NCBI GenBank assembly: GCA_003567685.1
Contig: PWYW01000014.1
Span: 1-37,766 of the forward strand
DNA: 37,766 bases
Source of the DNA: Gammaproteobacteria bacterium
GTDB taxonomy: Bacteria > Pseudomonadota > Gammaproteobacteria > Xanthomonadales > Wenzhouxiangellaceae
Direction: 5' to 3'
Positions 12,583 to 29,769 of this stretch are shown one piece after another (positions within the stretch are counted from its first letter, which is position 1; every line of letters starts with the position of its first letter). A program made the translations under genes and the position numbers. The notes under the pieces are model-generated. The model saw nothing but the letters and a program-made list of their open reading frames with translations, ran no database searches and was not told the origin of the DNA.

Positions 12583-14547
12583 TCAACGCCCGCTGTCGGT
12601 CGCCACGACCGGCAGCGGGATATGCAGCAAGCCGCAGATTGCCCGGAGTAGTTCCAGCTCGGCTGTTACAACCTGACCATCGAACTGAACCACGGTCACC
12701 ATGGCCTTCAGCAAGCGCTCCTTGTCGTTCGGCCGGAGTTTGTCCAGCCCGGCCAGCGCTTTGTCCAGGCGCGCCGGCCAATCGGTCGGGATAGACTCGA
12801 GCAAGGGCGGCATCGCCGTTCCCTCTGCGATCATCCGGAGGCCCTCGGCAGCGGCTTCCACCGCCACCTCGGCCTGTTCGGGCCTGCCGTGATGGGAAAG
12901 GATGGACAAAAACTCGGCAGCAGCTGGCAGGCGACCTGACAGCTTGGACGAGCCGGGTGCTCCCGCCCGTGAAGGATTCAATGATTCCTCGATGTGCTTG
13001 TTCAGCAGTCTCGCCAGCGCGTATTCGAAGACGTCGAGTTTGCCGTCTGCGGCGACCAGGCTCTCGACAAGTTTCATGAAGTCGATCAGATCACGGGCCG
13101 GTCGACGCCGGAGGACCGGGAAGGCCATTTCCATCAGTGGCAGACGCTGCTCGGGCTTTAGCCCACGCACGGAAGGGAGCAAGCTGCGGGTCTGCTGCTC
13201 CCCATCTTCGCCCAACTGGCGGGCAATCAACAGTAACTGCTCTTCGCGCACGTTGTCGTCGCTTGACAGCAACAGGCAAGCAATCAGCTCCATGGCCCAT
13301 TCGTCACTGTGTGCCGCACGCTCCAGCGTGCTCGGCAGGCTGGCCGTCAGCGCAGCGGCGATGAAAACCTGATTAAGACCGGGCTGGCCAATTTGCTCAG
13401 CCAGGCGCTCGGCATCCAGCGGCAGGCCACCTGGCCCGCGCTGTTGGGGCGTCTGCTGGCTTTCGGCCGCGGCCCGCCTGGCTTGCGCCTCTGCCTCTGC
13501 CTCGGCCCGGCGTGCCTGGGCATGGCGACTGAGCGATTCGGCCAGGGCCTTGATTTCGGCCTTGTCGAAATTGGGATCAATCGCCTTGATCCGTGACTCG
13601 AGCGGCGGATGGGTGGCAAATAACTGGTAACCCATGCCGCGGGCAAACAGCATGTGTCCCACCTCCTCGGCATCGGCCACCATGTAGGAGCTGGCACTCA
13701 GGGCAGCAATTTTCTTCAAGGCTCCGGCCACCCCATCGGGCTGGCGAGTGAACTGCACGGCCGAGGCATCGGCCAGGTATTCCCGCTGACGCGATACGGC
13801 GGCCTTTATCCAACGACCGAAAAACAAACCGATGTAGCCAATAATGAGAACCGCCAAGCCGATGAATATTGCCGGTGCGGCATTGCGTGAACCACGCGCC
13901 AGGCGAGCCGAGAACAAAAGCCGTCGGCCAATGATGGAAATGATCAGAATACCGAACAGCACGCCGATCAAACGGATATTCAAACGCATGTCGCCGTTGA
14001 AGATATGGGCAAACTCATGCGCGATCACACCCTGCAACTCGTCACGATCGAGATGCTCCAGCGTGCCACGGGTAACCGCGACGGCTGCGTCCGACGGGGA
14101 ATAGCCAGCCGCAAACGCATTGATGCCTTGCTCATGCTCCAGCACGTAGACCTCGGGCACGGGAATGCCTGAAGCAATGGCCATTTCCTCGACGACATTA
14201 TGCAGGCGACGCCGCAAGGGGTCACGGGTATCCGGTTCAACCAGGGTGCCGCCAAGCGCACGGGCAATATCGCCACCGCCGCTACGCAACTGGAGCGTAC
14301 GAAAGGCACTGGCCAGACCGATAATCGCGCCGGTGATCAGGCTGGTGACGGCAATAAGATTGAAATTGGCCTGGAGATACTCACCCGGCCCAACCGGTGT
14401 CCCCGGCTGGCCAATCTCGGCATAACCGAACAGGCCCAGCACCAGCACGTTGACGGCCACAATGATGCCGAGTACGGCGAGGCCAAACAAGGTCACCAAT
14501 CGACGAGTCTGTCGTCGCGCCTTGTCCTGTTGCTCGAAGAAATTCAC
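12583..14547 (-). CDS. M48-family membrane metalloprotease with C-terminal TerB-like extension
   Basis: The 654-aa product is an HtpX/Ste24-type zinc protease. Transmembrane segments are predicted at about residues 18-40, 64-86, 191-207 and 226-246. The zinc site is HEFAH (His177, Glu178, His181) with third ligand Glu257 in REYLADA. FATHPPLESRIKAI follows, as in other M48 proteases. After about residue 320 comes an Ala/Arg/Gln-rich linker (RRAEAEAEAQARRAAAES), then a helical domain of some 270 aa (KLVESLVAADGKLDVFEYALARL) that recalls TerB-like domains. Most HtpX proteins are near 290 aa, so this is the long form. The start is a GTG with no clear ribosome-binding site, 8 nt after a heptad repeat array. 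lemA lies upstream on the same strand. Confidence 0.92.
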   Translation of the reverse strand: MNFFEQQDKARRQTRRLVTLFGLAVLGIIVAVNVLVLGLFGYAEIGQPGTPVGPGEYLQANFNLIAVTSLITGAIIGLASAFRTLQLRSGGGDIARALGGTLVEPDTRDPLRRRLHNVVEEMAIASGIPVPEVYVLEHEQGINAFAAGYSPSDAAVAVTRGTLEHLDRDELQGVIAHEFAHIFNGDMRLNIRLIGVLFGILIISIIGRRLLFSARLARGSRNAAPAIFIGLAVLIIGYIGLFFGRWIKAAVSRQREYLADASAVQFTRQPDGVAGALKKIAALSASSYMVADAEEVGHMLFARGMGYQLFATHPPLESRIKAIDPNFDKAEIKALAESLSRHAQARRAEAEAEAQARRAAAESQQTPQQRGPGGLPLDAERLAEQIGQPGLNQVFIAAALTASLPSTLERAAHSDEWAMELIACLLLSSDDNVREEQLLLIARQLGEDGEQQTRSLLPSVRGLKPEQRLPLMEMAFPVLRRRPARDLIDFMKLVESLVAADGKLDVFEYALARLLNKHIEESLNPSRAGAPGSSKLSGRLPAAAEFLSILSHHGRPEQAEVAVEAAAEGLRMIAEGTAMPPLLESIPTDWPARLDKALAGLDKLRPNDKERLLKAMVTVVQFDGQVVTAELELLRAICGLLHIPLPVVATDSGR

Positions 14548-15308: not shown

Positions 15309-18300
15309 TTACTCGTTTGCCGGACGTTTGGCATCTACCGCATCATCGGGGTCAAGGTTGGTCTGGCGCAGATTGAACAGTAGCGACAGCAGACGACCTT
15401 CAGTCAACGGCCAACGCAGAATCATCGCCTCACGACCCGGAAATACCGACGGGTCCAGAGAGCGACCCAGATGACTGACAACTGCCAACTTGCCGGCCTG
15501 ATCGGCCCACGCTGGCGGGAGGTCCGACAGGTCCTTGGCGACCAGCAGCAAGTCGCAGGGGGCTGGCGGCTGGGTCCGAACACGGGTGAACCGGAAGCCC
15601 CATCGCCGGGCCAGCCTCAATATGACCCTGGCGCTGCTGGCATCACACGTTGCCGCAACGTGTACGCCGCCGAGGAAATTCGACAGCGGCAAAGGCGGGC
15701 TTGGACAGTCGATGATGGGCAGACGAACCCGGAAACAGGATCCCGGCAGGGTTTGTTCAATCAGGCTGAGTTCACCGTCCATCGCAGCAACCAGCCGGCG
15801 ACAAATAGCCAACCCAAGCCCACTGCCACTATGGCTCCGGGTAATGGAGGCATCGAGCTGTTCGAAAGGCTGGAACAGGCGTTCACGGTCCACTTCGTCG
15901 ATGCCCGGCCCGGAGTCGCGGACAAACAACACCAGCCATCGGCCGGCTTCGACAGCGACTGACAGCTCAACGCCGCCGCGCTCGGTAAACTTGATGGCGT
16001 TGTTCAGCAAATTACCCAACACCTGCCCGAGGCGATCGGCATCACCGAAGGCGACCAGAGGAAGATTCGAGGCAATTCGCAAACGAAGATCGACACCCTT
16101 GGCACCGGCGTTGGCGGCATGCAAGTCAATGATTTGTTCAAGCAGCGAGTTGAGCTCGAAATCGCTTTTTTCGAGACTCAACCGGCCGGCCTCGATACGT
16201 GAAATATCAAGCACATCATCAATGATTCGCTGGAGCTGGCGACCCGACTGGTGCAAGGTTGTCAGCAGATCCATTTGCCCGGCCGTCGGCTCACTGTCCT
16301 TGAGTAGATCCACCATGCCCATGACGCCATGCAATGGCGTTCTGATTTCATGGCTCATGGTGGCCAGGAATTCAGACTTGGCGGCATTGGCCTGTTCGGC
16401 CCGTTCGGCCAACGCCCTGACTTTCTCCAGCAGCAGAAGATTACGCAACGTGGGGCGAGCGGTTTGCAGCAGCAGCGCCAGTCGCTCCTGGTCAACGCCG
16501 GAAGGGGCCTTGTCATCCCAGGCCAGTCGACAGCCGGCAATGCGTTGGTCGTCGACCGAGAAACAAACCTCTCGTTCATGGGCGGGGGTCTGGTGTTCCG
16601 GGTGGCTGGTCGATCGGTCATCGCCGATGTGGATGGCCGGCCGGGAGAGTTCAGGGTGGTCGAAGACCAGACAACCACGGGTGGCTCCCGTCAGGTTGAC
16701 CAATTCCTCAAGCAGGACTTGCCCAACCGTCTCGGGCGCAAGCTTTCGATTGAGCCGCTCAATGAATCCGCGTTGCTCCTCGGCCAACTGTCGCTTGCTG
16801 GACGCCTGGCGCATCTCTTCGCGTCGACGTCGCACGGCGCGCGCACCACCCCACAACATCAGCAACAAGAGCAAGGCCAAAAGCGCATAACCCGTCAACG
16901 CCCAACGGCTCAACCAGGGCGGATGGGCAATAGTCAACTCCAAATACTGGCTGGTCTCTGACCACGGCCCATCAGGCGTTGCCGCCTGAACGCGGAAACG
17001 GTAGCGACCAGGGCGCAGGCGACTGTAGTAGTGGCGAGTCTGCCCTTCGAGCTGCAGCCAGTCTTCATCCCAGCCCTCGAGCCTCAGGCGGTAACGAACC
17101 TGGTCCGGTGCAACAAAGCTCGGCGCATTGAAATCCACGCTGATCGACGTCGCCCGATGGTCGAGCTCGATCAGCTGCTGTTCGCCAGGCATGAAGGTCC
17201 AGGTCTGGTCTCCGCTGGTCAGATGCGTGATGTGGACGGGCACCGGCTGATCGGCATTCCCGACCAGCGCAGGATCAAGCACCAACAGGCCGCCGCTGCT
17301 ACCCAGAGCCAGGCGACCATCCGGTAATGCGGCCATCGAGTGACGTCGAAACTCGGCCATTGGCAGACTGTCATTTTTCTGGAATCGCCGGAGTTGGCCG
17401 GACAACGGGTTGAACCGGGCAAGGCCATTCGACATGACCAGCCATAATTCATCGTCGTGAGCCTTGTGGATATTCAGTATTCGACCACGCGTCAACTGCT
17501 CGCGCAGGGGCCATCGACCCAGCGGCTGGAGCGTTTGGCCAGCGCGCTGGTAGCTGGTCAGTTCAAGGTCGGTCGCTACCCAGAGCTGGTCATCTGCCCA
17601 ATGAATAGCCTGGATCTGGCCATGATCCACCATCCGAGACGCGCGAAACCCCTGACCTGGCGAGTATCGATAGATTGTTTGACGGCCTGCCAGCCACCAA
17701 TGACCGCCTCCGTCCTGGAGGACGTCAATGACCTCTGTCTCAGGAAGATGAAATGAACCTTCACCGCCGGCATGAAAGTGCTCGCGGCTTCCCTCGCGCA
17801 GGTCCAGGCGAAAGAGGCCCGCATCAAAAGTAACGACCCAAAACTGACCGTTCGAAGCAGGCCTGAGAAAATGAAAGGTGCCTTGCTCGACACGCTCCCG
17901 CAGGAGCAAATCTTCAATCTGGCCGTCCGCAGGCCGGTAGGACCAGATACGGTTGGTCCGGGCAAAAACCAGGCGGTCATCGACCTTTGCCAGACTGGCA
18001 ACCAACGTTTCTTCTCCGACGGCGGCATCGTCATAAACATCACTTAGCCAGCGAGCCTCCCCGCTATCCAGGTCGAGTTGCTGGACACCGCCTTCACGAC
18101 TGGCGACGAGCAGAATCGACGGATCGTCGGTGACTTTAAGGGCGTTGACCACTGAGAACCCCAGCCGGTCTTCACGTCCGGGGACCGGTTGATAACGGGC
18201 AAAAGCCTCGTGCCCTGGCGGCAAGTAGGCAAGTCCGTTGCGGGTGACGATCATCCAGAGCCCGCCTTCCTGGTCGAGGAGCGGATTGAACAAATGATTC

Positions 18301-19232
18301 GACAGCAGGCTCCCGGGAATCCCGGGCTGGCGCTGGATCGTTCGGTAGTCTCCCCGGGCAACGTCCCATATCAGCAGGCCGTCATAGGTCACGACATAGC
18401 GCAGCCCCTGACGCGTCTCGACGACCCCACTGATGGTATTGCGCGTCTCGAGGAGTTGCTCATAGCCCTTGCCATCAGCATCAATGGCAAGCAGCTCATG
18501 ACGGCGATGAGCCAGAACCTGGCCATCCGGAAGCTCCGACAAGCCGTTGAAGATTGGGTGGCCCGCGTTGGGATCGCGATCAAGCAAAGGCTGAAACCTG
18601 TCGCCATTCGGGCTGGCAAGGCGGGAAACTCTTTCGGTCTGGGCCAGCCAGACCGAGCAATCCGATGCGCTGTGGATGGACATCTGAAAGCCGTTCTCCG
18701 CCAATCCAAAGGCCGATTCCTGGGGAAACCGGCGGAGACTGCCATCGGGAGCCAGGCGGGCCACACCGCCGCGCATGAAAGCGAACCACAGCCCACCCTC
18801 GCAGTCTTCGGTCATCGACCAGATGGTTCCATGCGGGAGCTTGCCGCCTTCACTCTCGGGCTTGAGATGCCGAAGCAGACTTAAATCCGGGGCGATTTCG
18901 ACCAGCCCGTGGCCGGAAATACCGGCCCAGACGTGACCGTCGGAATGGGCGTGCAGAATCGTGATGTTATCGCCCGGCAAGGCGTTCGGCTGCCTTGGAT
19001 CATGGCCAACCGGTCGGATGTGCTGGCCCTCATGACGGACCAGTCCACCCCGGCTACCGATCCAGATATAACCGTAGATATCCTGGACGATGGCTTCTGC
19101 CTGGCTATCGGGCAGACCCTGGATGACGCTCAGTTGGCGGAAATAGGGGCCAAGATCACTGGCAACGACAGGCAGTGCAAACAACACCGCCAACAGCAGC
19201 CCAACCGCTTTCAATCTTTGCGCTCGTTCCAT
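15309..19232 (-). CDS. Two-component propeller hybrid-type sensor histidine kinase with degenerate receiver
   Basis: The 1307-aa protein has a signal peptide (residues 1-24), then a periplasmic sensor of two seven-bladed propellers. Its blades include [18 protein letters not shown] and [15 protein letters not shown], the ligand-box style of Reg_prop proteins. A Y_Y_Y domain follows at about 690-765 ([25 protein letters not shown]), then one transmembrane segment (about 775-797) and a coiled coil. The HisKA domain has the phospho-acceptor His961 in [15 protein letters not shown]. The ATPase domain has [16 protein letters not shown] and [13 protein letters not shown]. The last 120 residues resemble a receiver ([17 protein letters not shown]), but the usual phospho-Asp position reads Ala. 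No DNA-binding domain is present, unlike the Bacteroides hybrid sensors. Its output partner is not visible. Ligand is unknown; proximity to the TonB cluster is suggestive only. Confidence 0.92.
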
Positions 19233-19283: not shown

Positions 19284-19322
19284 CCATTCCATCGACCCTG
19301 CCCATTCGGCAGAACCAAAAGC

Positions 19323-19351
19323 AAAACGGCAGGCCAGTGGCCTGCCGTTTT
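19323..19351 (-). terminator. Rho-independent terminator of the TonB2-type operon
   Basis: AAAACGGCAGGCC and GGCCTGCCGTTTT form a perfect 13-bp stem with loop AGT (as read on the plus strand). On the minus strand the stem ends in TTTT followed by GCTTTT, giving the U-rich tail. It lies 26 bp after the TPR gene stop codon. The A-tract on the other side could make it partly bidirectional. Confidence 0.85.
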
Positions 19352-19377
19352 ATCAATAACCCGTCATTCCGCCCCGA

Positions 19378-20811
19378 TTATTCGGCGTCATCTTCAAGCG
19401 GGGCGTCCAGTTCTTCCTGCTCACGCTCAAGCGCTTCCTGGCACTCCGCAGACAGGGTTCGTCCGGCAATCTGAAGTGCGCGACAAGACTGCAGGAAACG
19501 CTCTTCGGCGGCTTCGGCCAGGCGTTCTTCCTGCTCCTGTTCCAGCAGCGCCTGTCGCGTCTCCGTATCGTCAATGGCTCGGATATATTCCTGCCACGAT
19601 CTCGCCTGAGCCCGGGTCGGATCAAAGCGGGCTGCTTCGGCAAAGGCCTCGTTGGCCCGACGACGCTGCGCACGATCTCCAGGTCCTGCCTGGTTGAATC
19701 GTGCCGTACCCAGCAGCAGCCAGGCGTCGGCCCGGTTGGCCTCGCTCAAGCCACCTACGTTCAACGCGTTGCGGAACGCGTCTTCGGCATCGGCATTGTT
19801 TTCGTCAGCCATCAACGCCTGTCCAAGACGGTAATACAGGGTCCCGGTCTCTGCCATGCCGGCCGCTTCACGGAGAACCGGAATCGACCGCCGATGTTCG
19901 CGCGCCTGGCTCCACAACTGGGAAAGCAGCTGAAGGTTATCAACGTTTCTCTCAACTCGACCCTGCTCCATCTCGCGCTCTACCAGATTGGCACCACGAT
20001 GTGGATTGTTGAAGGTCGAGTAGAACTGGGCCAACAGAATGATGTCATCCTCGCTTTCGGTCAGACCCGCCAGGTACGCTGATTCCATGACCGAGAACGC
20101 CTGGAATTGATCGTCTTGGTCAAGATACAGCCCAGCCAGTTGACGCCAATAAGGCAAATTGTCAGGCCACAGCGCCACCATCCGCTTCATCAACTCGGTC
20201 CGCTGAGTCGTTCGGTTGAGCTCGTTCAGAACCACGTTCTTGAAATCGTAGTTACGTTGCCTTGGCTCAGGGGCGAGGTCCATGGCACGGATGATGTTTT
20301 CCAGGGCAGGCTCAAGTTCATCCAACTGGTAATGGGCGCCGGCCAGCATGAAGAAGGTGGTTTCGGAGGGCTCTGCCTCTTCACTCGCCAACCAGCGATT
20401 GAACAGGTCGATTGACTCCCGGTAACGCTCAGTAGCGAAATAAAGTTGCGCCAGATTGAATCGCAAACGGTTGTTTTGCTCTGACGGGAGTGCTTCAAGG
20501 TTCAAAGCCTCGTCGAAGTCACGTATACCCGCCTCGAAGTTTTCGAGCTGAACGTGGGCCGATCCGCGAATCTGCAAAACCGAGGCACGGTCGAAGCCGG
20601 ACATCCGCTCGCCGCGACGGCTCATCAGGGTGTCAAGTTTCTGCAGTGCCTCTTCGAAGTTCTCGTTTTCCAGCTCCTCGTACGCGCTCAGCAGGTCATT
20701 GGCCACTGCTGGCGTCAACGTCTGGGCGGACGCCGTGGACCAGGCACCCAAGGCGGCGACAAGGAAAGAAACCGCGAACAACAGACGGTATTGGGTCAAT
20801 CGCACGATCAT
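19378..20811 (-). CDS. Secreted TPR protein of the TonB2-type system
   Basis: The 477-aa product has a signal peptide (residues 1-30, VSFLVAALGAWSTASAQ). The body is a chain of tetratricopeptide-like helix pairs from about residue 36 to 420: FEEALQKLDTLM, FEAGIRDFDEALNLEA, YRESIDLFNRWLA, AEDAFRNALNVGG. A charged coiled-coil tail rich in Glu follows (LLEQEQEERLAEAAEERFL). TPR proteins of this kind close TonB2/TtpC clusters in vibrios and many other gammaproteobacteria and are thought to assist TonB-dependent energy transfer in the periplasm; their partner is not firmly known. The start codon lies 4 bp inside the tonB 3' end (20808-20811), so translation is coupled. It is the last gene before a strong terminator. 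Confidence 0.88.
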   Translation of the reverse strand: MIVRLTQYRLLFAVSFLVAALGAWSTASAQTLTPAVANDLLSAYEELENENFEEALQKLDTLMSRRGERMSGFDRASVLQIRGSAHVQLENFEAGIRDFDEALNLEALPSEQNNRLRFNLAQLYFATERYRESIDLFNRWLASEEAEPSETTFFMLAGAHYQLDELEPALENIIRAMDLAPEPRQRNYDFKNVVLNELNRTTQRTELMKRMVALWPDNLPYWRQLAGLYLDQDDQFQAFSVMESAYLAGLTESEDDIILLAQFYSTFNNPHRGANLVEREMEQGRVERNVDNLQLLSQLWSQAREHRRSIPVLREAAGMAETGTLYYRLGQALMADENNADAEDAFRNALNVGGLSEANRADAWLLLGTARFNQAGPGDRAQRRRANEAFAEAARFDPTRAQARSWQEYIRAIDDTETRQALLEQEQEERLAEAAEERFLQSCRALQIAGRTLSAECQEALEREQEELDAPLEDDAE

Positions 20812-21407
20812 CCCTCCAGTGAAAAGTCGATGGCGGTTCTAACGCCGAAGCGGGGTTGCTGTACGCCGTCCACGACGCGCGGCTGGTAGCGCCAGCGCTC
20901 GACCGCACGCATGGCCGCCCGGTTGAAACAGGTGTTGGTTGAATCCACGACTCGCGGATTCACAACCGTTCCCTCCGGCGTCACGTCGAATTCCACCGTG
21001 ACGGATTCGACGGGGCCAGCCCTACCCTGGCATTGGCTGGGATACTGAGGCGGAATCCTGACCAGCGGCTGAGCATCTCTATCGGGATTAAATCCGGTTC
21101 CAATGTCCAGGCCTGCACCGAGGTCGGGAGCTTCTACCGCGGCCGTGCCAATCGTCGGACGGAATGACGGGTCGGTCACCACCGGCGGCGGTGGCGGTGG
21201 TTGATCAAGCACTGGGCGCTGGAAATCCTCCGGGCGCTGGGTGGAACGATCTTCGATCTGCCGGCTGATGTTGATCTGAACCGACACATCGTCGGTCAGA
21301 AGGACATCCTGATTCTGGGCAATGACCGACGCCAGCAGGAGAAAAATGATCGCAGTGATCAGAAATGCGCCGGGTAGGCCCGTGAAAAGACGGATGATTG
21401 GACTCAT
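20808..21407 (-). CDS. tonB2: TonB2-type energy transducer protein
   Basis: The 199-aa product spans the inner membrane once (residues about 13-30, GAFLITAIIFLLLASVIA) and has a short proline-rich periplasmic linker (QPPPPPPVV). The C-terminal domain (about 112-199) is a TonB fold: PLVRIPPQYPSQC, VTVEFDVTPEGTV, FNRAAMRAVERWRYQPR. Two Cys residues, in QYPSQC and NTCFNRAA, could form a disulfide. Short length and short proline region are typical of TonB2 rather than classic TonB. It passes energy from ExbB/ExbD to an outer-membrane receptor, possibly the one encoded at 27050-29746. The start codon overlaps the exbD stop by 4 bp (ATGA), and the TPR gene overlaps its end. Confidence 0.93.
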   Translation of the reverse strand: MSPIIRLFTGLPGAFLITAIIFLLLASVIAQNQDVLLTDDVSVQINISRQIEDRSTQRPEDFQRPVLDQPPPPPPVVTDPSFRPTIGTAAVEAPDLGAGLDIGTGFNPDRDAQPLVRIPPQYPSQCQGRAGPVESVTVEFDVTPEGTVVNPRVVDSTNTCFNRAAMRAVERWRYQPRVVDGVQQPRFGVRTAIDFSLEG

Positions 21408-21811
21408 GAGCGCCTCGTCGATACGGCAATGGTTTCCTGAACACCAGCATCACGGATTGACTGCAGAACGCGAATCAAGTACTCGCTTTCTGCAGAACCA
21501 TCGGACTGGATCACAGCGCTACCCCGTGGGTTCTCGCGGCGGAGGCGCTCGACAGCAGCACGAACGCCTTCCAGTGGTGTTTCTTCCCGGTTGATCCAGA
21601 TGCGATTCTCCGAATCAATCGCCACCAGCACGGAAACGAGGCGTTGATCCTCGGCCGTATCGGCATCGGGCCGCTGAACCTGTACGCCCGGCTCCTTGAT
21701 GAAGGTGGCCGTGACGATGAAGAAAATCAGCATGATGAACACGATGTCGAGCAACGGTGTGACGTTGACATCCGCGTCCTCTTCACCGTCTGTTCTGCGT
21801 CGTCTAAGCAT
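21404..21811 (-). CDS. exbD: ExbD-type biopolymer transport protein
   Basis: The 135-aa product is a stand-alone ExbD. A short basic cytoplasmic N-terminus (MLRRRRTDGEEDADVNV) precedes one membrane helix, TPLLDIVFIMLIFFIVTATF. Asp22 in this helix is the conserved proton-pathway residue. A periplasmic domain of about 95 residues follows, with NPRGSAVIQSDGSAESEYLIRVL. It pairs with ExbB-like proteins to power TonB. A second ExbD domain is fused to ExbB in the preceding gene; the two are similar in the helix (TPLLDIVFI) but differ in the periplasmic part. The gene starts 9 bp after the fusion gene and overlaps tonB by 4 bp. Confidence 0.94.
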   Translation of the reverse strand: MLRRRRTDGEEDADVNVTPLLDIVFIMLIFFIVTATFIKEPGVQVQRPDADTAEDQRLVSVLVAIDSENRIWINREETPLEGVRAAVERLRRENPRGSAVIQSDGSAESEYLIRVLQSIRDAGVQETIAVSTRRS

Positions 21812-21820
21812 GGTGTTCCT

Positions 21821-22783
21821 CTACTGTCTCTGTTGCAAGGCCACGGCGGGTTCAACGCCGGCCATACGGGGTTGATCCAAAACCAGCACGGTAGTTTCAA
21901 CCCTGGCGTCATTTGCCGCACTGATCATGACCACGCCATTCGGATTTTCAGCCATGAACGCTTCCACGATCGGGCTGACAGAGCGCGGGTCAGTCAGTCG
22001 GACATCATCGACCATGACGAAACCATCGTTGCGAACATTCAGCACCATCGATGGTGGCGGACGGCGTTGATCCTCGGGCGGCGTTTCTTCCGGTGACGTC
22101 ATGCCCAGACCTATTTCATCGAGGAACGTCGCCGTGACGATGAAGAAGATAAGCAGAATGAAAACGATATCCAGCAGCGGGGTGATGTCGACCTCGCCGG
22201 CTTCCAGCGATGAACCTGCCAGTCGCCGATGGCCACCGAAGCCCATGCCGGCTTCGACTTCAAGGTCTTGAGACAGCTTGGCAACAGAGCGCTGGTTCAA
22301 GCGCTCCAGATAGTTGATTGCCAAAACGCCGGTCAAGGCAACCGCCAGGCCTGTCATGGTGGGAATGGTGGCCCGCGAGATGCCGGATGCCATCAAACGA
22401 GCATTCGACGCCCCGGTGTCGACAATGACCTGGAACACTTCCAGCATGCCTGTGACCGTACCCAACAGCCCCAGTAATGGCGTGATCATGATCAGCGCCC
22501 GAATCACGTTCAGATTGCGCTGATTTTCGACCCGCACCTCGGAGATCAGCCGCTCACGGTAGGCATACGCCTCCCAGGTGCGACGGTCCTCTCGATTGTC
22601 CCAGGACTTGACGGCTTTGCCAAAAAGGCGGCGATGCCAGATGGCAAAGTACAGGGCCCGCTCGCTGATCAGCATCCACATGACGAAGGTACTGCACAGC
22701 AATGCCACCACCACCGGACCACCCACGTTCAGGAAGTTCGAGATGGTCGCGATGGCGTTGGCTGGATTGAGTAGCTCTAACAC
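21821..22783 (-). CDS. ExbB-ExbD fusion protein
   Basis: One uninterrupted frame of 320 codons contains two complete energiser subunits. Residues 1-175 are ExbB: helix about 22-40, second helix 92-118 with TPLLGLLGTVTGML, third 135-158 with TIPTMTGLAVALTGVLAINYLE. A linker (about 165-197) leads into ExbD: EVDITPLLDIVFILLIFFIV, with conserved Asp205 in the membrane helix, and a periplasmic domain to residue 320. ExbB ends and ExbD begins on the cytoplasmic side, so the fusion is topologically sound. Met180 (plus-strand 22244-22246) is where a separate ExbD would normally start; no good ribosome-binding site precedes it. Loss of an exbB stop codon is the simplest origin. A fusion imposes a 1:1 ratio unless trimmed by proteolysis. 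A sequencing error is unlikely since an in-frame stop would have to be altered, but cannot be excluded. Confidence 0.9.
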   Translation of the reverse strand: MLELLNPANAIATISNFLNVGGPVVVALLCSTFVMWMLISERALYFAIWHRRLFGKAVKSWDNREDRRTWEAYAYRERLISEVRVENQRNLNVIRALIMITPLLGLLGTVTGMLEVFQVIVDTGASNARLMASGISRATIPTMTGLAVALTGVLAINYLERLNQRSVAKLSQDLEVEAGMGFGGHRRLAGSSLEAGEVDITPLLDIVFILLIFFIVTATFLDEIGLGMTSPEETPPEDQRRPPPSMVLNVRNDGFVMVDDVRLTDPRSVSPIVEAFMAENPNGVVMISAANDARVETTVLVLDQPRMAGVEPAVALQQRQ

Positions 22784-22811: not shown

Positions 22812-24233
22812 TCAGCCGTTGTTGGCGTCGGGCTCGGCCACCAGGCTGATTGACTGTTGCTCGAGCACCTGGCCGAGACGACGGGCCGTGCCGGAAGCAA
22901 AGGCGTGCAGCAGCAGCAGCGGAATGGCAGCGATAAGACCCAGCACGGTGGTCACCAGTGCCTGTGAAATACCACCGGCCATCAGCTTCGGATCACCCGT
23001 ACCAAACAGAGTAATAGCCTGGAAGGTGACGATCATGCCGATAACGGTACCCAGCAGACCCATCAGCGGTGCGATCGCTGCCAGTACCTTGACGATGTTC
23101 AGGCCGCTCTCCAGCTTGGGCAGTTCCTGCAGAACCGCGTCGTCAAGACGCATCTGGAGGGTTTCCAGATCTTCCTTGCGGTTCTCTTCATACGCGATCA
23201 TGATCCGACCCAACGGGTTACCCGACGATGGCGTGGATGAACGCATCTGCGACTTGACTCGCATTGCCGTGATCGACAGCAACAACCAGCGCAACAGTGC
23301 CAGCAAGGTGCCGAAAATGGCAACGATGATGATGGCGTAACCAATGCCGCCACCCTGATCGATGCGCTCGCGCAGGTTGGGGATTTCAACCGCCATGCCC
23401 AGAAGCGCGCCCAGTGAGGGGTCAATCAGGCCGCGGGTGACGCCAGAACCATCAAAGTTATAGACATCGCGGGCGGCGCGGACTGCACCACCGCCAGGCT
23501 GGCGAACCAGATAACGAAGTTGGCCATCACGCGGAATCAGGAAACCGCGCTCGGTAAAGGCCGCAAACGGTCCAATGCGAACCACGGTTTCGGTTTCCGA
23601 GCGGTTGTCGCTGAGAATGACCGGCGCATCGAAGCGTGCAACGCGGGCCTGCTCACTGATCTCCTGCAGCATGGTGAACCACAGATATTCCAGCTCTTCG
23701 ATAGTCGGCAGAGAGCCGGACTGCGCCATACGCGACAAGTCTTCGCCGCGATTCGGGAACTGGGCAGAAATCAGCGATTCAGCCAGGTTGCCTTCCAGGT
23801 CGGCCGCAGCCGCGCGGGCCACACCAAACAATTCACCGAACTCGCCCTGGCGCTCGGCCAGCGTGGCACGCAAGGATTCCAACTCGCGATCAAGTTCTTC
23901 GCGAAGGTTCTCAAGACGCTCGGCCTCGCGCTCGGCAGCTCTGACTTCAGCTTGAAGCCGCGACAGCTCCTGCTCTTGGTTGGCTTCTTCACGGCGGAAA
24001 CGGGCTTCACGCTCCTGATTTTCAGCGCTGACCGCACGACGCTCGCTCTGCATGGCCTGCAGGACCTGCTCGATGGACTGAGCCTGAGATTGGGCCAGTG
24101 CGTTTGGCACGGCAACAAAAGCGGCCACGGACATTACCAGGGCGGCAATGACGGCGTGACGGAAAGAAAATTTGCTCATGGTCTGGTTGGCCTGAACGGA
24201 TGTACGAAGTGATGAACGGTTTGCAGTCGTCAT
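22812..24233 (-). CDS. ttpC: TtpC-like MotA/TolQ/ExbB proton channel protein with periplasmic coiled coil
   Basis: The 473-aa product has the layout of TtpC of vibrio TonB2 systems: a signal peptide or N-terminal helix (about residues 26-48, AALVMSVAAFVAVPNALA), a long coiled coil (about 55-125, rich in Glu/Arg), a periplasmic segment, and a C-terminal MotA/TolQ/ExbB channel domain. That domain has three membrane segments (GYAIIIVAIFGTLLALLRWLLL; IAPLMGLLGTVIGMIVTF; ALVTTVLGLIAAIPLLLLHAF). Start 24233 has AGGGGG upstream; Met19 at 24179 is a possible alternative that would give a standard signal peptide but has no good Shine-Dalgarno site. It lies 9 bp after the DUF3450 gene. It likely forms a second, structural ExbB-type subunit with the fusion protein. 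Confidence 0.92.
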   Translation of the reverse strand: MTTANRSSLRTSVQANQTMSKFSFRHAVIAALVMSVAAFVAVPNALAQSQAQSIEQVLQAMQSERRAVSAENQEREARFRREEANQEQELSRLQAEVRAAEREAERLENLREELDRELESLRATLAERQGEFGELFGVARAAAADLEGNLAESLISAQFPNRGEDLSRMAQSGSLPTIEELEYLWFTMLQEISEQARVARFDAPVILSDNRSETETVVRIGPFAAFTERGFLIPRDGQLRYLVRQPGGGAVRAARDVYNFDGSGVTRGLIDPSLGALLGMAVEIPNLRERIDQGGGIGYAIIIVAIFGTLLALLRWLLLSITAMRVKSQMRSSTPSSGNPLGRIMIAYEENRKEDLETLQMRLDDAVLQELPKLESGLNIVKVLAAIAPLMGLLGTVIGMIVTFQAITLFGTGDPKLMAGGISQALVTTVLGLIAAIPLLLLHAFASGTARRLGQVLEQQSISLVAEPDANNG

Positions 24234-24242
24234 GATGCCCCC

Positions 24243-25025
24243 TTATTCGCCGGTCTGAGGCGCGGTTACCGGAATGAAAATCAGATCAGGCGGAATCTGC
24301 TCGCGGGCAATCCGGGATGCTGTTTTCACGTCCGGCAGGAAGGCGCGATCCAGGTCAACCCAGGAACCGCTATCGGCATCGAAACGCTTGAGCACTTCGT
24401 CGTCGTCGGTGCGGAAAATCAGTGCAACGCGACCAATCCGCAGAAACTCGACGTTCTCATAGGTGCGGCCATCGACCTCGATGCTGTCGCGGTACGCTTC
24501 AATCGTGCGTCCCAGCTCGTTCTCGATCTGGTACGCCTCGACTACCAGTCGGTAGCGCTGTGCAGGGGAGCGACCCGGATCATCCATGATCCCGCGCAGT
24601 CGCTCAACGCGCTGGCGACGCTCGTCGAGCAGCATCGGCACGTCAGCAGTGACGAGCTCAGCGAGGGCTTCGACCATGTCTTCCATCAGCGGCTGAACGG
24701 CACGCTGCAGACTTGCGATGTTGCTGATGTCGCGCTCCAGCGAGGCAATTTCACGACGCTGCGAGTCAACCTGGCGCTGCTGCGACGCGTTATAGCGATT
24801 GAGTTGCTCAAGCTGGTTGAGGTTCGCGCGATAGTCGCTCAGCAGGGTCTGGATTCGGGAATCGAGGTTGTCGATCCGCTCCTGTGACTGGCCGGTCTCC
24901 TGAGCCACGGCTCGGCTGGTGTCCAACACCGGCTCAACCTGCTGGGCCTGGATCTGCGGCACCGCCAGAAGCATTCCTGCTCCAATGGCCAGGCCAGCAT
25001 TCATCGCAAATTTCTGTCGTTTCAT
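24243..25025 (-). CDS. DUF3450 family periplasmic coiled-coil protein, first gene of the TonB2-type cluster
   Basis: From the ATG at 25025 (AGGA about 9 nt upstream) the product is 260 aa with a signal peptide (MKRQKFAMNAGLAIGAGMLL, cleavage after VPQIQA). The frame is open back to 25094, but that extension has no sense as a leader. A coiled coil covers about residues 40-110 (SQERIDNLDSRIQTLLSDY, QRQVDSQRREIASLERDIS). The DUF3450 core includes VPMLLDERRQRVERLRGIM, SPAQRYRLVVEAYQIENELG and FLRIGRVALIFRTDD. Proteins of this family lead TtpC-ExbB-ExbD-TonB2 clusters in many gammaproteobacteria; the role is unknown. Confidence 0.92.
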   Translation of the reverse strand: MKRQKFAMNAGLAIGAGMLLAVPQIQAQQVEPVLDTSRAVAQETGQSQERIDNLDSRIQTLLSDYRANLNQLEQLNRYNASQQRQVDSQRREIASLERDISNIASLQRAVQPLMEDMVEALAELVTADVPMLLDERRQRVERLRGIMDDPGRSPAQRYRLVVEAYQIENELGRTIEAYRDSIEVDGRTYENVEFLRIGRVALIFRTDDDEVLKRFDADSGSWVDLDRAFLPDVKTASRIAREQIPPDLIFIPVTAPQTGE

Positions 25026-25072
25026 AAAGGTCAATCCTGAAAAGTAAGTCGCGTCGGCAAAACTAGCATTGC

Positions 25073-25101
25073 ACGTTAGCCGATCTGGAAACAATACTCA
25101 A
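25073..25101 (-). promoter_or_regulatory. Possible sigma-70 promoter of the TonB2-type cluster
   Basis: On the minus strand TTGAGT (25101-25096) and TAACGT (25078-25073) have a 17-bp spacer and lie 48 bp before the DUF3450 ATG. The -35 is fair and the -10 weak. No Fur box could be recognised around it. Confidence 0.3.
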
Positions 25102-27049: not shown

Positions 27050-29746
27050 TTAGAACGTCTGGACATAACGCAGGTAGGTGACTCGACCGTAACCGTTGTA
27101 CAGGTTGAAGTTGAAGCCACGACCTTCACCCGGATCCAGTACCGGATCCTTGTCGAACAGGTTGTCGACACCCAGTGAGATGCGACCATTCCACGGAGCG
27201 AAGTAGTTGACCTGAACGTCATGGGTGATCCAGGACGGCAGGCGGTCCAAGTTCGGGCTGGAGGCGCTGCGCTGGCTACCAATGTAGTTCATGTTCCAGT
27301 TCACGCCGAAGTCACCGAAGTTGTACTGGTTGGCCCAGATCGCGCGCCAGCGCGGCAGACCAGCCAGACCGGCAACGTTGGCACCGCTGTCGACTTCCTG
27401 GCTCCACAGGTAGCTAGCGTTGATTTCCGAACGCAGACGACCGAGGTTGTCCAGATCGAAGTTACCACGCAGGCTGATGTCGAAACCGTCGGAATCAACC
27501 GTACCCAGGCTGGCAAAACCGCTCTGCAGGAACACGATGCTGCCGTCAGCACGGGTTTCCATACCAAGACCCAGCTCCGGGCTCGGAGCTGCCGAACCGG
27601 TCGGGAAGAAGCTCAGTCCCGGCGGGCAGTTGGTGCTGGTACCTTCCAGGCAGTTGATGATCTGCTGCGCACCGATGCCGGCAACGCGATCGTCAATGCT
27701 GATGTTCCAGTAATCCAAGGTTGCGGTGAACCAGTCGGTCGGTTCCCAGACAACACCCAGGCCGAACTGCTCGGAGGTTTCAGCGCCGAGATCCGGGTTG
27801 GCAATCGAGAAGGTGGTGATCTGGATTGCTTCGGTCGGGTCTTCGTTGCCGAAGGCCGTAGCAGTCGGAACGTGGACTACAGAAGCGGCACCGAAGGACG
27901 GCTGCTGGGCGAGGATATCCAGCGGCGGAGCACGGAAGCCTTCACCGTAGGAGGCACGGAAGCCGAGGGTGTCCAGCGCGTCGTAGCGGAACGAGATTTT
28001 CGGCGAGAAGTTGCTGCCGAAGTCGCTGTAATCATCGTAACGGCCTGCCAGGGACATTTCGAGGTTGTCCAGCAGCGGGAACAACAGCTCACCATAGATG
28101 GCCCACTGGTCACGATCGCCGAAGGCTGAGTTACCGGCCGAACCGGTGATGTTACCGGCAGCCTGCAGGTCATCGTAGATGTCCTTGTAGTCTTCGTCGC
28201 GGTACTCGGCACCGACAGCGAAGCCAACTGCGCCGTTGGCCATTTCGAACAAGTCACCAGAAACCAGTGCACGGTACTCGCGGGAAACGAAGCGAGCGTC
28301 ACGGTTGATGGTCGAGGTGAACGACTGCAGCACGTCCGGATCGACGTTGAACGGGTCATAGATGTTGTAGGCACCGCTGTCGAACTGCGGCTGAGCCAGG
28401 GCAGACACCACGTAGTTACGACCCAGGTCGATGTACTGGGATTCAACGCGACGGGCACCGAACTCGACGTCGTAATCACCGAGGGTACCGGTGACGAAGA
28501 AGTCCAGATCGTAGACCGAGGCGTCGGTGTTGGTATCACGCGGGCCGTTGGCGGCAAAGCGGTGAGCCAGCAGCAGCTGCTCGTCCGGACCGGCGTAAAG
28601 GACATCACCGTCGTCGTTGAGAACCGGGTTCTGATACTGTTCCCAAGCCGGGTTCAGGCCGCCTTCCGAGGCCGGGGTACCCGGGTGGTTCGGGGTGCCC
28701 GGATCAAGGCGGATGAAGCCGAAGCCACCTACCAGCCAGGGCGAGGACGGAACCGGCGCGTAACGACCAAAGCTCTTGACGCGGGTCATGCCGGCGTTCA
28801 TGTGCATGGTCCAGTTGTTGTCGATGTCGTAGCTGGCGCGGGTGAACAGCGACTGGTTCTCGATCTCGGCTTCGTCTGCAGCCTGCAGGGTGAAGTCGTA
28901 GAAGCAACGGGTTGAGGCACCAGAGCCGCCTTCGAAGAAGCCTTCGCCGTTACAACCGTTACCGGCCAGTGAAGAGCCGAAGGTCGGGTGCTGAAGGAAA
29001 GCGCCATTGGCACGCAGCACGTTGTTCGAGAAGACCGAGGCACCACCCTGTGACCATTCACGGTCAGCCTGGAAGATGATGTCACGCTTGTTGTTCGACA
29101 CACCAACCATGATGCGAGCGTTGTCGCTGGCTGCGCCAATGATGGCCGAAGCTTCACGGGTGTCACCACCAGAGCGCTTCGGGCTGGACACGCCAACCAT
29201 GACTTCAGCGCCGGTGAAGTCCGAGCGGGTGATGATGTTGACAACACCGCCGATGGCGTCGGAACCATAAATTGCCGAGGCACCGTCGGAGAGGATTTCG
29301 ATCCGCTCAACGGCAGCCAGCGGAATAGCGTTCAAATCCTGGCCGGAACCCACGTTCGGGGCAGTCGGTGCGCGACGACCGTCGATCAGGACCAGGGTAC
29401 GACCTGAGCCCAGAGCGCGTAGCGAGATGCCGGCGAAGGACTGAGCCGAGCTACCAGACTGCGGACGGAAGGAACCGCCGGAGTTGATCGGCTGGTTGCG
29501 AAGCAGGTCGGCGACCGAGGTCTTACCGGATGCTTCGATGGATACGCGGTCAATGATCTGTACCGGCAGGGCGCCGTCCAGGTCATCACGAGCAATACGG
29601 GAACCGGTGACGGCCAGGCGGTCAAGCGTCGCCTCTTCGTCGTCCTGGGCAAGAACCGGAGCAGCGGTCATTGCCAGGCCGGCAACCATGCCCGCGCCGA
29701 GCGCATAGCTGATTGCCGAGGCAAGGGGGTTACGGTTGTGCTTCAT
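27050..29746 (-). CDS. TonB-dependent outer-membrane receptor
   Basis: The product is 898 aa from the ATG at 29746, which has GGAG 6 nt upstream; the ATG at 29758 is the site of that ribosome-binding sequence and is not preferred. A signal peptide (to VLAQ, about residue 34) is followed by a TonB-box-like stretch (ATLDRLAVTGSRI), then the plug domain (about 45-185) with RDDLDGALPVQIIDR, RTLVLIDGRRAP, AVERIEILSDGASAIYGSDAIGGVVNIIT. The beta-barrel fills the rest and ends in RVTYLRYVQTF with the terminal Phe needed for insertion. No SusC-like extension is present. The substrate is unknown. It is the only receptor in the window and the likely client of the TonB2-type cluster 2 kb downstream. Confidence 0.95.
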   Translation of the reverse strand: MKHNRNPLASAISYALGAGMVAGLAMTAAPVLAQDDEEATLDRLAVTGSRIARDDLDGALPVQIIDRVSIEASGKTSVADLLRNQPINSGGSFRPQSGSSAQSFAGISLRALGSGRTLVLIDGRRAPTAPNVGSGQDLNAIPLAAVERIEILSDGASAIYGSDAIGGVVNIITRSDFTGAEVMVGVSSPKRSGGDTREASAIIGAASDNARIMVGVSNNKRDIIFQADREWSQGGASVFSNNVLRANGAFLQHPTFGSSLAGNGCNGEGFFEGGSGASTRCFYDFTLQAADEAEIENQSLFTRASYDIDNNWTMHMNAGMTRVKSFGRYAPVPSSPWLVGGFGFIRLDPGTPNHPGTPASEGGLNPAWEQYQNPVLNDDGDVLYAGPDEQLLLAHRFAANGPRDTNTDASVYDLDFFVTGTLGDYDVEFGARRVESQYIDLGRNYVVSALAQPQFDSGAYNIYDPFNVDPDVLQSFTSTINRDARFVSREYRALVSGDLFEMANGAVGFAVGAEYRDEDYKDIYDDLQAAGNITGSAGNSAFGDRDQWAIYGELLFPLLDNLEMSLAGRYDDYSDFGSNFSPKISFRYDALDTLGFRASYGEGFRAPPLDILAQQPSFGAASVVHVPTATAFGNEDPTEAIQITTFSIANPDLGAETSEQFGLGVVWEPTDWFTATLDYWNISIDDRVAGIGAQQIINCLEGTSTNCPPGLSFFPTGSAAPSPELGLGMETRADGSIVFLQSGFASLGTVDSDGFDISLRGNFDLDNLGRLRSEINASYLWSQEVDSGANVAGLAGLPRWRAIWANQYNFGDFGVNWNMNYIGSQRSASSPNLDRLPSWITHDVQVNYFAPWNGRISLGVDNLFDKDPVLDPGEGRGFNFNLYNGYGRVTYLRYVQTF

Positions 29747-29769
29747 CAGACTCTCCATTGTGTCTTTTG

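Follow-up and report, generated by a model that had tools for sequence, protein, structure and literature searches.

In the window, a stretch of 37,766 nucleotides from a bacterium of the Wenzhouxiangellaceae, the ring protein ExbB and the axle protein ExbD of a Ton motor are encoded as one continuous polypeptide, with ExbB at the N-terminus and ExbD at the C-terminus. The host belongs to a group of salt-loving bacteria. The fusion is a genuine new variant of a known motor, the ring and axle proteins of which are normally separate. The reading that we favor, and consider somewhat better than evenly probable, is that of a TonB2/TtpC-type motor in which ExbB and ExbD were joined by loss of a stop codon and in which the fused chain shares a ring with TtpC.

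Both halves of the protein were recognized by Pfam above the curated cut-offs: MotA_ExbB (PF01618) at residues 65-170 (E 4.6e-22, 78.6 bits against a cut-off of 22.9) and ExbD (PF02472) at residues 196-311 (E 4.9e-19, 69.1 bits against 25.4). Matches to the NCBIfam equivalogs exbB, tolQ, ExbD_1, and tolR were weak and far under the curated cut-offs, the best scores being 41.2 for tolQ (cut-off 221) and 36.9 for tolR (cut-off 127.3). Hydropathy analysis gave four membrane-helix peaks, at ~21-39, 96-114, and 138-156 in the ExbB half and at ~203-221 in the ExbD half, where a periplasmic domain follows. About 45 residues are predicted to lie on the cytoplasmic side between the third ring helix and the axle helix. 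This 3+1 arrangement fits the known topology, in which ExbB has three helices and a large cytoplasmic domain and the N-terminus of ExbD is cytoplasmic (PMC6778125). The open 320-aa frame and its two Pfam domains thus bear out the earlier note, which had described a single ExbB-ExbD chain at this place with a Met180 codon at ~22244 and had argued that the membrane topology permits such a fusion; the three ring helices and one axle helix support the latter point. The features of the operon are listed in Table 1.

Table 1. Operon with the fused gene: positions and strand in the window, and supporting evidence (residue numbers are those of the encoded protein)
Feature	Position	Strand	Evidence or remark
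TtpB-type protein (DUF3450), first operon gene	24243..25094	-	PF11932, E 2.3e-71; the true start may be inside the ORF
TtpC-type ExbB, 473 aa, long N-terminal part	22812..24233	-	PF01618 at 343-457
ExbB-ExbD fusion gene	21821..22783	-	GTG start, 320 aa, stop codon 21821-21823, no internal stops
ExbB half, residues 1-177	22253..22783	-	PF01618, hydropathy, alignments to solved ExbB/TolQ chains
Joining stretch, residues 163-195	22199..22297	-	Purifying selection, from dN/dS
Met180 codon	22244..22246	-	Start-type codon in 17/24 fused genes, other codon in 7/24
ExbD half, residues 181-320	21824..22243	-	PF02472; alignment to 6tyi ExbD
Free ExbD, 135 aa, membrane Asp kept	21404..21811	-	PF02472
TonB, 199 aa	20808..21407	-	PF03544
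TtpD-type TPR protein, last operon gene	19378..20811	-	TPR families; position as ttpD2 of V. vulnificus, according to PMC6957404
Terminator-like hairpin, 14 pairs, 3' of the last gene	19322..19352	-	Consensus match only

The residues of ion-driven motors were located by mapping the E. coli ExbB numbering through solved ExbB/TolQ chains. T109 and T142 of the fusion correspond to T148 and T181 of E. coli ExbB, so that both ring threonines are present, and Thr was found at the T181 place in all 24 fused genes described below. D205 corresponds to Asp25 of E. coli ExbD, was invariant in 22 aligned rows, and lies 25 residues from M180; the TPxxD motif containing this membrane Asp was found in 24/24 fused ExbD halves. 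R137 and T151 occupy the places of E. coli ExbB E176 and P190, respectively.

The operon runs in the order TtpB, TtpC, fusion, ExbD, TonB, TtpD, with gaps of 9, 28, 9, -4, and -4 bases, and all six members of a TonB2/TtpC-type operon (TtpB, TtpC, ExbB, ExbD, TonB, and TtpD) are present. Coordinates and Pfam matches confirm that a TtpC-type ExbB and a free ExbD stand in the same operon, as the earlier note had stated. Both were also found in the operons of all 24 whole fused genes of the Wenzhouxiangella clade and of the two Robiginitomaculum cases described below (26/26); in one of these operons (L021), the contig carries only the last 185 residues of TtpC. TPxxD was present in 24/24 free ExbD of the fused operons. 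The hairpin listed in Table 1 is one of two terminator-like sites in the region, compared with 5.8 in shuffled sequences, a count that is not significant. From TonB and a TonB-dependent receptor with plug and barrel encoded upstream (27050-29758, minus strand), the operon probably powers TonB-dependent transport across the outer membrane. Two genes separate this receptor from the operon, one methyltransferase-like (a label given from reading only) and one 2OG-Fe(II) oxygenase-like. Directly downstream of the operon lies the gene of a 1307-aa sensor kinase (15309-19232, minus strand) with Reg_prop, Y_Y_Y, HisKA, and HATPase_c domains, and an M48 peptidase gene with a C-terminal TerB domain (12583-14547, minus strand) adjoins a LemA gene.

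We surveyed 30 genomes of the genus. The fusion was whole in 21, including the genome of the window, was cut by contig ends in 2 (G006 and G012), and was not found in 7 (G003, G005, G010, G015, G017, G026, and G027), of which G005, G010, G015, and G017 have a completeness of only 75-88%. It was also whole in a genome of the neighboring genus (G030) and in two named loci (L097 and L099); these and the 21 genus genomes make up the 24 whole fused genes of the Wenzhouxiangella clade, that of the window included. The fused proteins range down to 63-65% identity to that of the window. The same open frame was seen in 22 loci, including the window's own, and 23 other assemblies in total have a whole, open junction. 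One of the 21 genus genomes (G019), a single contig of 3,844,697 bases that matches in size the closed nanopore and Illumina assembly of Wenzhouxiangella AB-CW3 described in PMC7691419, has the fusion in the same open frame. The earlier note had proposed inspecting the junction in relatives; no stop codon was found there in the fused relatives, and the contrary case did not arise. An assembly or sequencing artefact that deleted a stop codon could be entertained because many of the relatives are draft assemblies, but with the junction open in 21/30 genus genomes and in 23 other assemblies, a single-contig one among them, the probability of such an error is practically nil, and we rejected this reading. 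These results indicate that the fusion is real and is no sequencing error.

Beyond this clade, the fusion was rare in the samples searched. In a class sample of 369 genomes, of which 105 were matched with at most six candidates scored per genome, a frame free of stops across both domains was seen, among the matches listed, only in the genome of the window and, partly, in G267. The phylum sample (63/398 genomes matched) gave a fusion only in the genome of the window, and a sample of another class centered on G780 (28/385 genomes matched) gave none, with at most five candidates scored per genome in each. Among the matches listed for these 369, 398, and 385 genomes, samples that overlap partly, no sound fusion was found outside the Wenzhouxiangella and Robiginitomaculum clades. 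In a scan of named genomes, the best 80 of at least 560 places comprised 10 fused genes of the Wenzhouxiangella clade, 2 Robiginitomaculum loci with a fused copy, and 68 places at which no ORF with both domains was present. Apparent fusions in G051 and G404, suggested by shared open-frame lengths, were rejected since the loci (L084 and L085) contain two ORFs each. The frame in the draft genome G267 (L086, 3529-4554) joins ExbB and ExbD between comEC-like and msbA-like genes, both labeled from reading; it has no first ring helix, looks frame-shifted, and is doubtful, possibly an assembly error. In the open-licence full-text literature, no fused ExbB-ExbD, TolQ-TolR, or MotA-MotB was found described, which is weak evidence of absence. 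PMC12905483 and PMC12505986 do not mention a fusion, the word "fused" is absent from PMC11658791 and PMC9389320, and "fusion" is absent from PMC5903867; the phylogenetics section of a 2022 UniProt survey of 5:2 motors (PMC9389320) likewise contains no mention of fusions.

Furthermore, we compared the ring helices of ExbB and TtpC across TtpC operons (L035-L050, L084-L089, L100-L169, and the window). L086 and the truncated loci L027 and L028 were excluded from the residue counts. Near-identical sequences were kept (90 ExbB rows, 87 distinct), and the G-numbered and named sets may share genomes. From the unfused operons, four ExbB and three TtpC rows were read by eye, among them six that the residue pattern had missed or misread (L089, L117, L140, and L158; L043 and L133), and the 164-aa "ExbB" of L085, which is an end piece of TtpC, was counted as TtpC. 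In 24/24 genes, fused ExbB lacks two residues of the third ring helix of E. coli ExbB, Glu176 and Pro190. At the E176 place, fused ExbB has R (20) or K (4) and the TtpC of the same operons has Q (24/24); at the P190 place, fused ExbB has T and TtpC of the same operons has P, each in 24/24. Glu176 of E. coli ExbB is a residue that we take to be important, to face the pore, and to define the ExbB family. Two more ExbB-type proteins are encoded in the genome of the window, and both have the usual Glu at this place. The conserved Pro of the third helix has been linked to opening of the proton channel, according to a review (PMC12905483).

The same pattern was observed where ExbB and ExbD are separate. 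In 89 unfused operons, ExbB has K or R at the E176 place in 72 (Q in 11, others in 6) and S or T at the P190 place in 89/89, and the TtpC of unfused operons (90 rows) is never basic at the E176 place and has P at the P190 place in 90/90. R or K at the E176 place was therefore rejected as a hallmark of the fusion. The unfused ExbB of TtpC operons share the E176 and P190 changes, so that these mark a subfamily. Pro was also noted at the A180 place in the ExbB of TtpC operons (85/90 rows). As judged from the aligned sequences, fused ExbB and TtpC have opposite residues at these positions, as would be expected if the two held different places in one ring. Because operons with and without the fusion have this pattern in common, it points to mixed rings in TtpC systems as a whole and does not fix the number of fused chains per ring. 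The earlier note had considered mixed complexes possible; the opposite residues in 24/24 operons lend this idea substance, though by deduction only. Some loci departed from the usual gene arrangement. In L128, L139, and L166, a second TtpB-TtpC-ExbD cluster without a short ExbB of its own follows the usual operon, as if borrowing ExbB, and L135 and L154 are unusual in both order and size, with a TtpC of ~750 aa and a TonB of ~465 aa before ExbD.

The published complexes mostly contain five ExbB and two ExbD, with the N-termini of ExbD inside the cytoplasmic cavity of the ring (PMC6778125, PMC12215075, PMC12905483). The earlier note had pointed out that a 1:1 chain conflicts with such a 5:2 complex, and the continuous ORF, set against the published ratio, upholds that argument: ExbB and ExbD are a single ORF here, in place of the two separate chains by which 5:2 motors are defined. 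The fused protein would form one long chain of three ring helices, ~45 cytoplasmic residues, an axle helix, and a periplasmic domain, and probably builds no ring alone. Sequence and genetics together lead us to infer a common ring of ExbB and TtpC; in V. vulnificus, all six TonB2 proteins, ExbB2 and TtpC2 included, are reported to be essential (PMC6957404). The ring would be shared with TtpC, which retains the ring-helix proline missing from fused ExbB. Each fused chain in a ring would bring one axle helix, so that a single fused chain would pair with a free ExbD and two fused chains could pair their own helices. A ring composed mostly of TtpC, with one or two fused subunits among its five parts, would give the right number of axle helices, and with the free ExbD as the second axle helix, the favored make-up would be four TtpC, one fusion, and one free ExbD. 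By homology with other Ton motors, TonB would be driven by protons flowing past the two Asp residues of the axle.

Tying the axle to the ring also has a bearing on the rotary model, a point missing from the earlier note. Current models have ExbD turn relative to the ExbB ring (PMC12215075, PMC12905483), and a 2026 review calls the wrap-and-pull rotating version of the Ton motor "largely speculative" (PMC12905483). Were both axle helices tethered, each turn would wind the tethers, and after a few turns they would be taut, leaving limited swings and no endless rotation. If winding of the tether is obligatory, a rough estimate with assumed distances gave at most ~2 turns for a 20-residue tether and ~4 turns for one of 37 residues. 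If the axle instead pairs a fused with a free ExbD, the one tethered chain could swivel and slip over the free end of its partner, which two tethered chains could not, and endless turning would stay possible. Such a mixed axle would also account for the retention of the free ExbD in all fused operons seen. We propose tentatively, at distinctly less than even probability, that this is a natural motor with its axle tied to its ring, working by limited swings or with one swivelling chain, and with the asymmetry of ring and axle hard-wired. Since winding of a tether limits turns, the fusion is a natural test of endless rotation.

The origin of the fusion was traced in trees of both halves. In the tree of the ExbB half (116 rows), 24 fused rows group with unfused Parvularculaceae ExbB (100/98), and the 26 fused rows require two origins, forced by well-supported branches. 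In the ExbD tree, which has 159 rows and few columns and in which the bootstrap had not settled, fused ExbD groups with the first ExbD of the Parvularculaceae (100/100) and free ExbD with their second (100/96), again with two origins of fusion. In two Parvularculaceae loci, L100 (Parvularcula lutaonensis) and L101, exbB and exbD share a reading frame that is interrupted between them by one stop codon (TAA and TAG, respectively); L101 reads DLEVE, stop, GMRR, where the window reads DLEVEAGMGF. Given these unfused genes in one frame, the fusion looks like the outcome of stop loss, in which a sense codon replaced the stop; Met180 probably marks the original start of exbD. The second, independent ExbB-ExbD fusion was found in TtpC operons of Robiginitomaculum (L157, 6544-7506; L165, 4968-5936). 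There an unfused ExbB and two ExbD come first and the fused copy follows as an extra gene; two TonB genes are also present.

Stop loss could have been neutral, with the fused protein working like two separate ones and the join having no effect on the motor. Apart from the lost stop, the join indeed adds almost nothing, and one stop separates neighboring ExbB and ExbD frames in 45/88 unfused pairs, a biased set in that the pairs were ranked by matches reading through stops; for the same reason, we set aside as evidence the share of neighbors lying in frame (81/88). However, the join persists among fused proteins as far apart as the identities given above, fusion arose twice, and a tether must, as we reason, limit subunit number and turning. 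We regard a neutral join as unlikely, although it deserves serious weight. The chain could instead be resolved into two working products, by a cut in the joining stretch or by a second start, yielding free ExbD and the usual 5:2 complex. Met180 is relevant here, being ATG in 16 of the 24 fused genes (the window included), at the place of the Parvularculaceae exbD start, and several species have other possible starts nearby. Ribosome pairing of -5.1 to -7.4 kcal/mol precedes the ATG at this place in 8/24 genes (L007, L010, L011, L014, L015, L020, L022, and L097; L014 is the fused gene of AB-CW3), as good as at most main starts, for which the energies of L019, L021, L023, L024, and L097 are unusable since they were taken at a downstream ATG and not at the conserved GTG. 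This GTG was found at the same main-start place in 24/24 fused genes, with an ATG two codons upstream in L015, L025, and L026. In the window, however, pairing before Met180 is -0.5 kcal/mol, compared with -5.1 at the main start. In the eight genes without ATG at this place, the codon is CTG (5), CTA (1), CTT (1), or TTG (1), and L016 has no ATG, GTG, or TTG among the 40 codons that precede the ExbD helix. The suggestion of the earlier note that a separate product starts at Met180 does not hold generally, and a conserved second start was rejected as a general explanation, given a non-start codon in 7/24 genes and the startless L016; a second start is possible in single species, and the fused chain may be trimmed by a protease. 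The adjoining gene, moreover, already supplies a separate ExbD. In 33 pairs of fused genes of >80% identity, dN/dS was 0.090 for ExbB and 0.114 for the linker (163-195). In the same pairs, the ExbD helix region (196-222) had a value of 0.008 and the periplasmic part of ExbD one of 0.069. The joining stretch is thus evolving as coding sequence, under purifying selection as protein, which also speaks against two products; we consider them improbable.

Five fused chains could also build a ring of their own, with two ExbD helices in the pore and three outside in the membrane, and with the free ExbD and TtpC serving other complexes or steps. The 25 residues from M180 to D205 would be long enough to place the spare helices outside, and E. 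coli ExbB:ExbD preparations of 5:1, 5:2, and 6:3 are on record (PMC12905483), so that a ring seems to tolerate odd numbers. Such a ring, however, would carry five R or K at the E176 place, which presumably faces the pore, and would have no P190, and TtpC and the free ExbD are kept in 24/24 operons. The near-frozen ExbD helix would also be unexpected if three of five copies were idle. We judge a ring of fused chains alone quite improbable, and a ring shared with TtpC remains our favored reading.

A conserved natural chain that fixes ExbB and ExbD at 1:1 and tethers the axle to the ring tests the questions of stoichiometry and rotation with no need for engineering. TtpC systems also deserve attention, in that a single motor there seems to combine two different ring proteins and, often, two different axle proteins. 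The group with the fusion has a cultured strain, AB-CW3, and a public proteome (PRIDE PXD021036, PMC7691419), and all three Ton subunits are stated to be expressed in this strain (PMC7691419). The peptide across the ExbB/ExbD join, MAEELDVEAAMAYGATR, has a computed 2+ ion at m/z 914.416.

Among known systems, the Vibrio TonB2/TtpC system, as described for the six-gene tonB2 operon of V. vulnificus (PMC6957404), has the same six protein kinds as the operon of the window, but here ExbB and ExbD are one chain and a second, free ExbD is added. E. coli ExbB-ExbD-TonB (6TYI and later structures) has both domains, the 3+1 helices, and the T148, T181, and Asp25 equivalents in common with the fusion, but consists of two separate chains at 5:2, and the fused ExbB of the window is without equivalents of E176 and P190. 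The AglRQS gliding motor of Myxococcus combines one ring protein with two different axle proteins, the heterodimer pairing of which is stated to be unknown (PMC9389320); its function is another one, and no fusion is reported for it in the relevant part of that survey. The Robiginitomaculum loci likewise encode a single-chain ExbB-ExbD in a TtpC operon, but it arose independently and, unlike that of the window, is additional to an unfused ExbB and two ExbD. The Parvularculaceae loci L100 and L101 have TtpC, ExbB, and two ExbD in the order of the window and contain the closest ExbB and first and second ExbD by tree; they differ in that a single stop codon parts the ExbB frame from the first ExbD frame.
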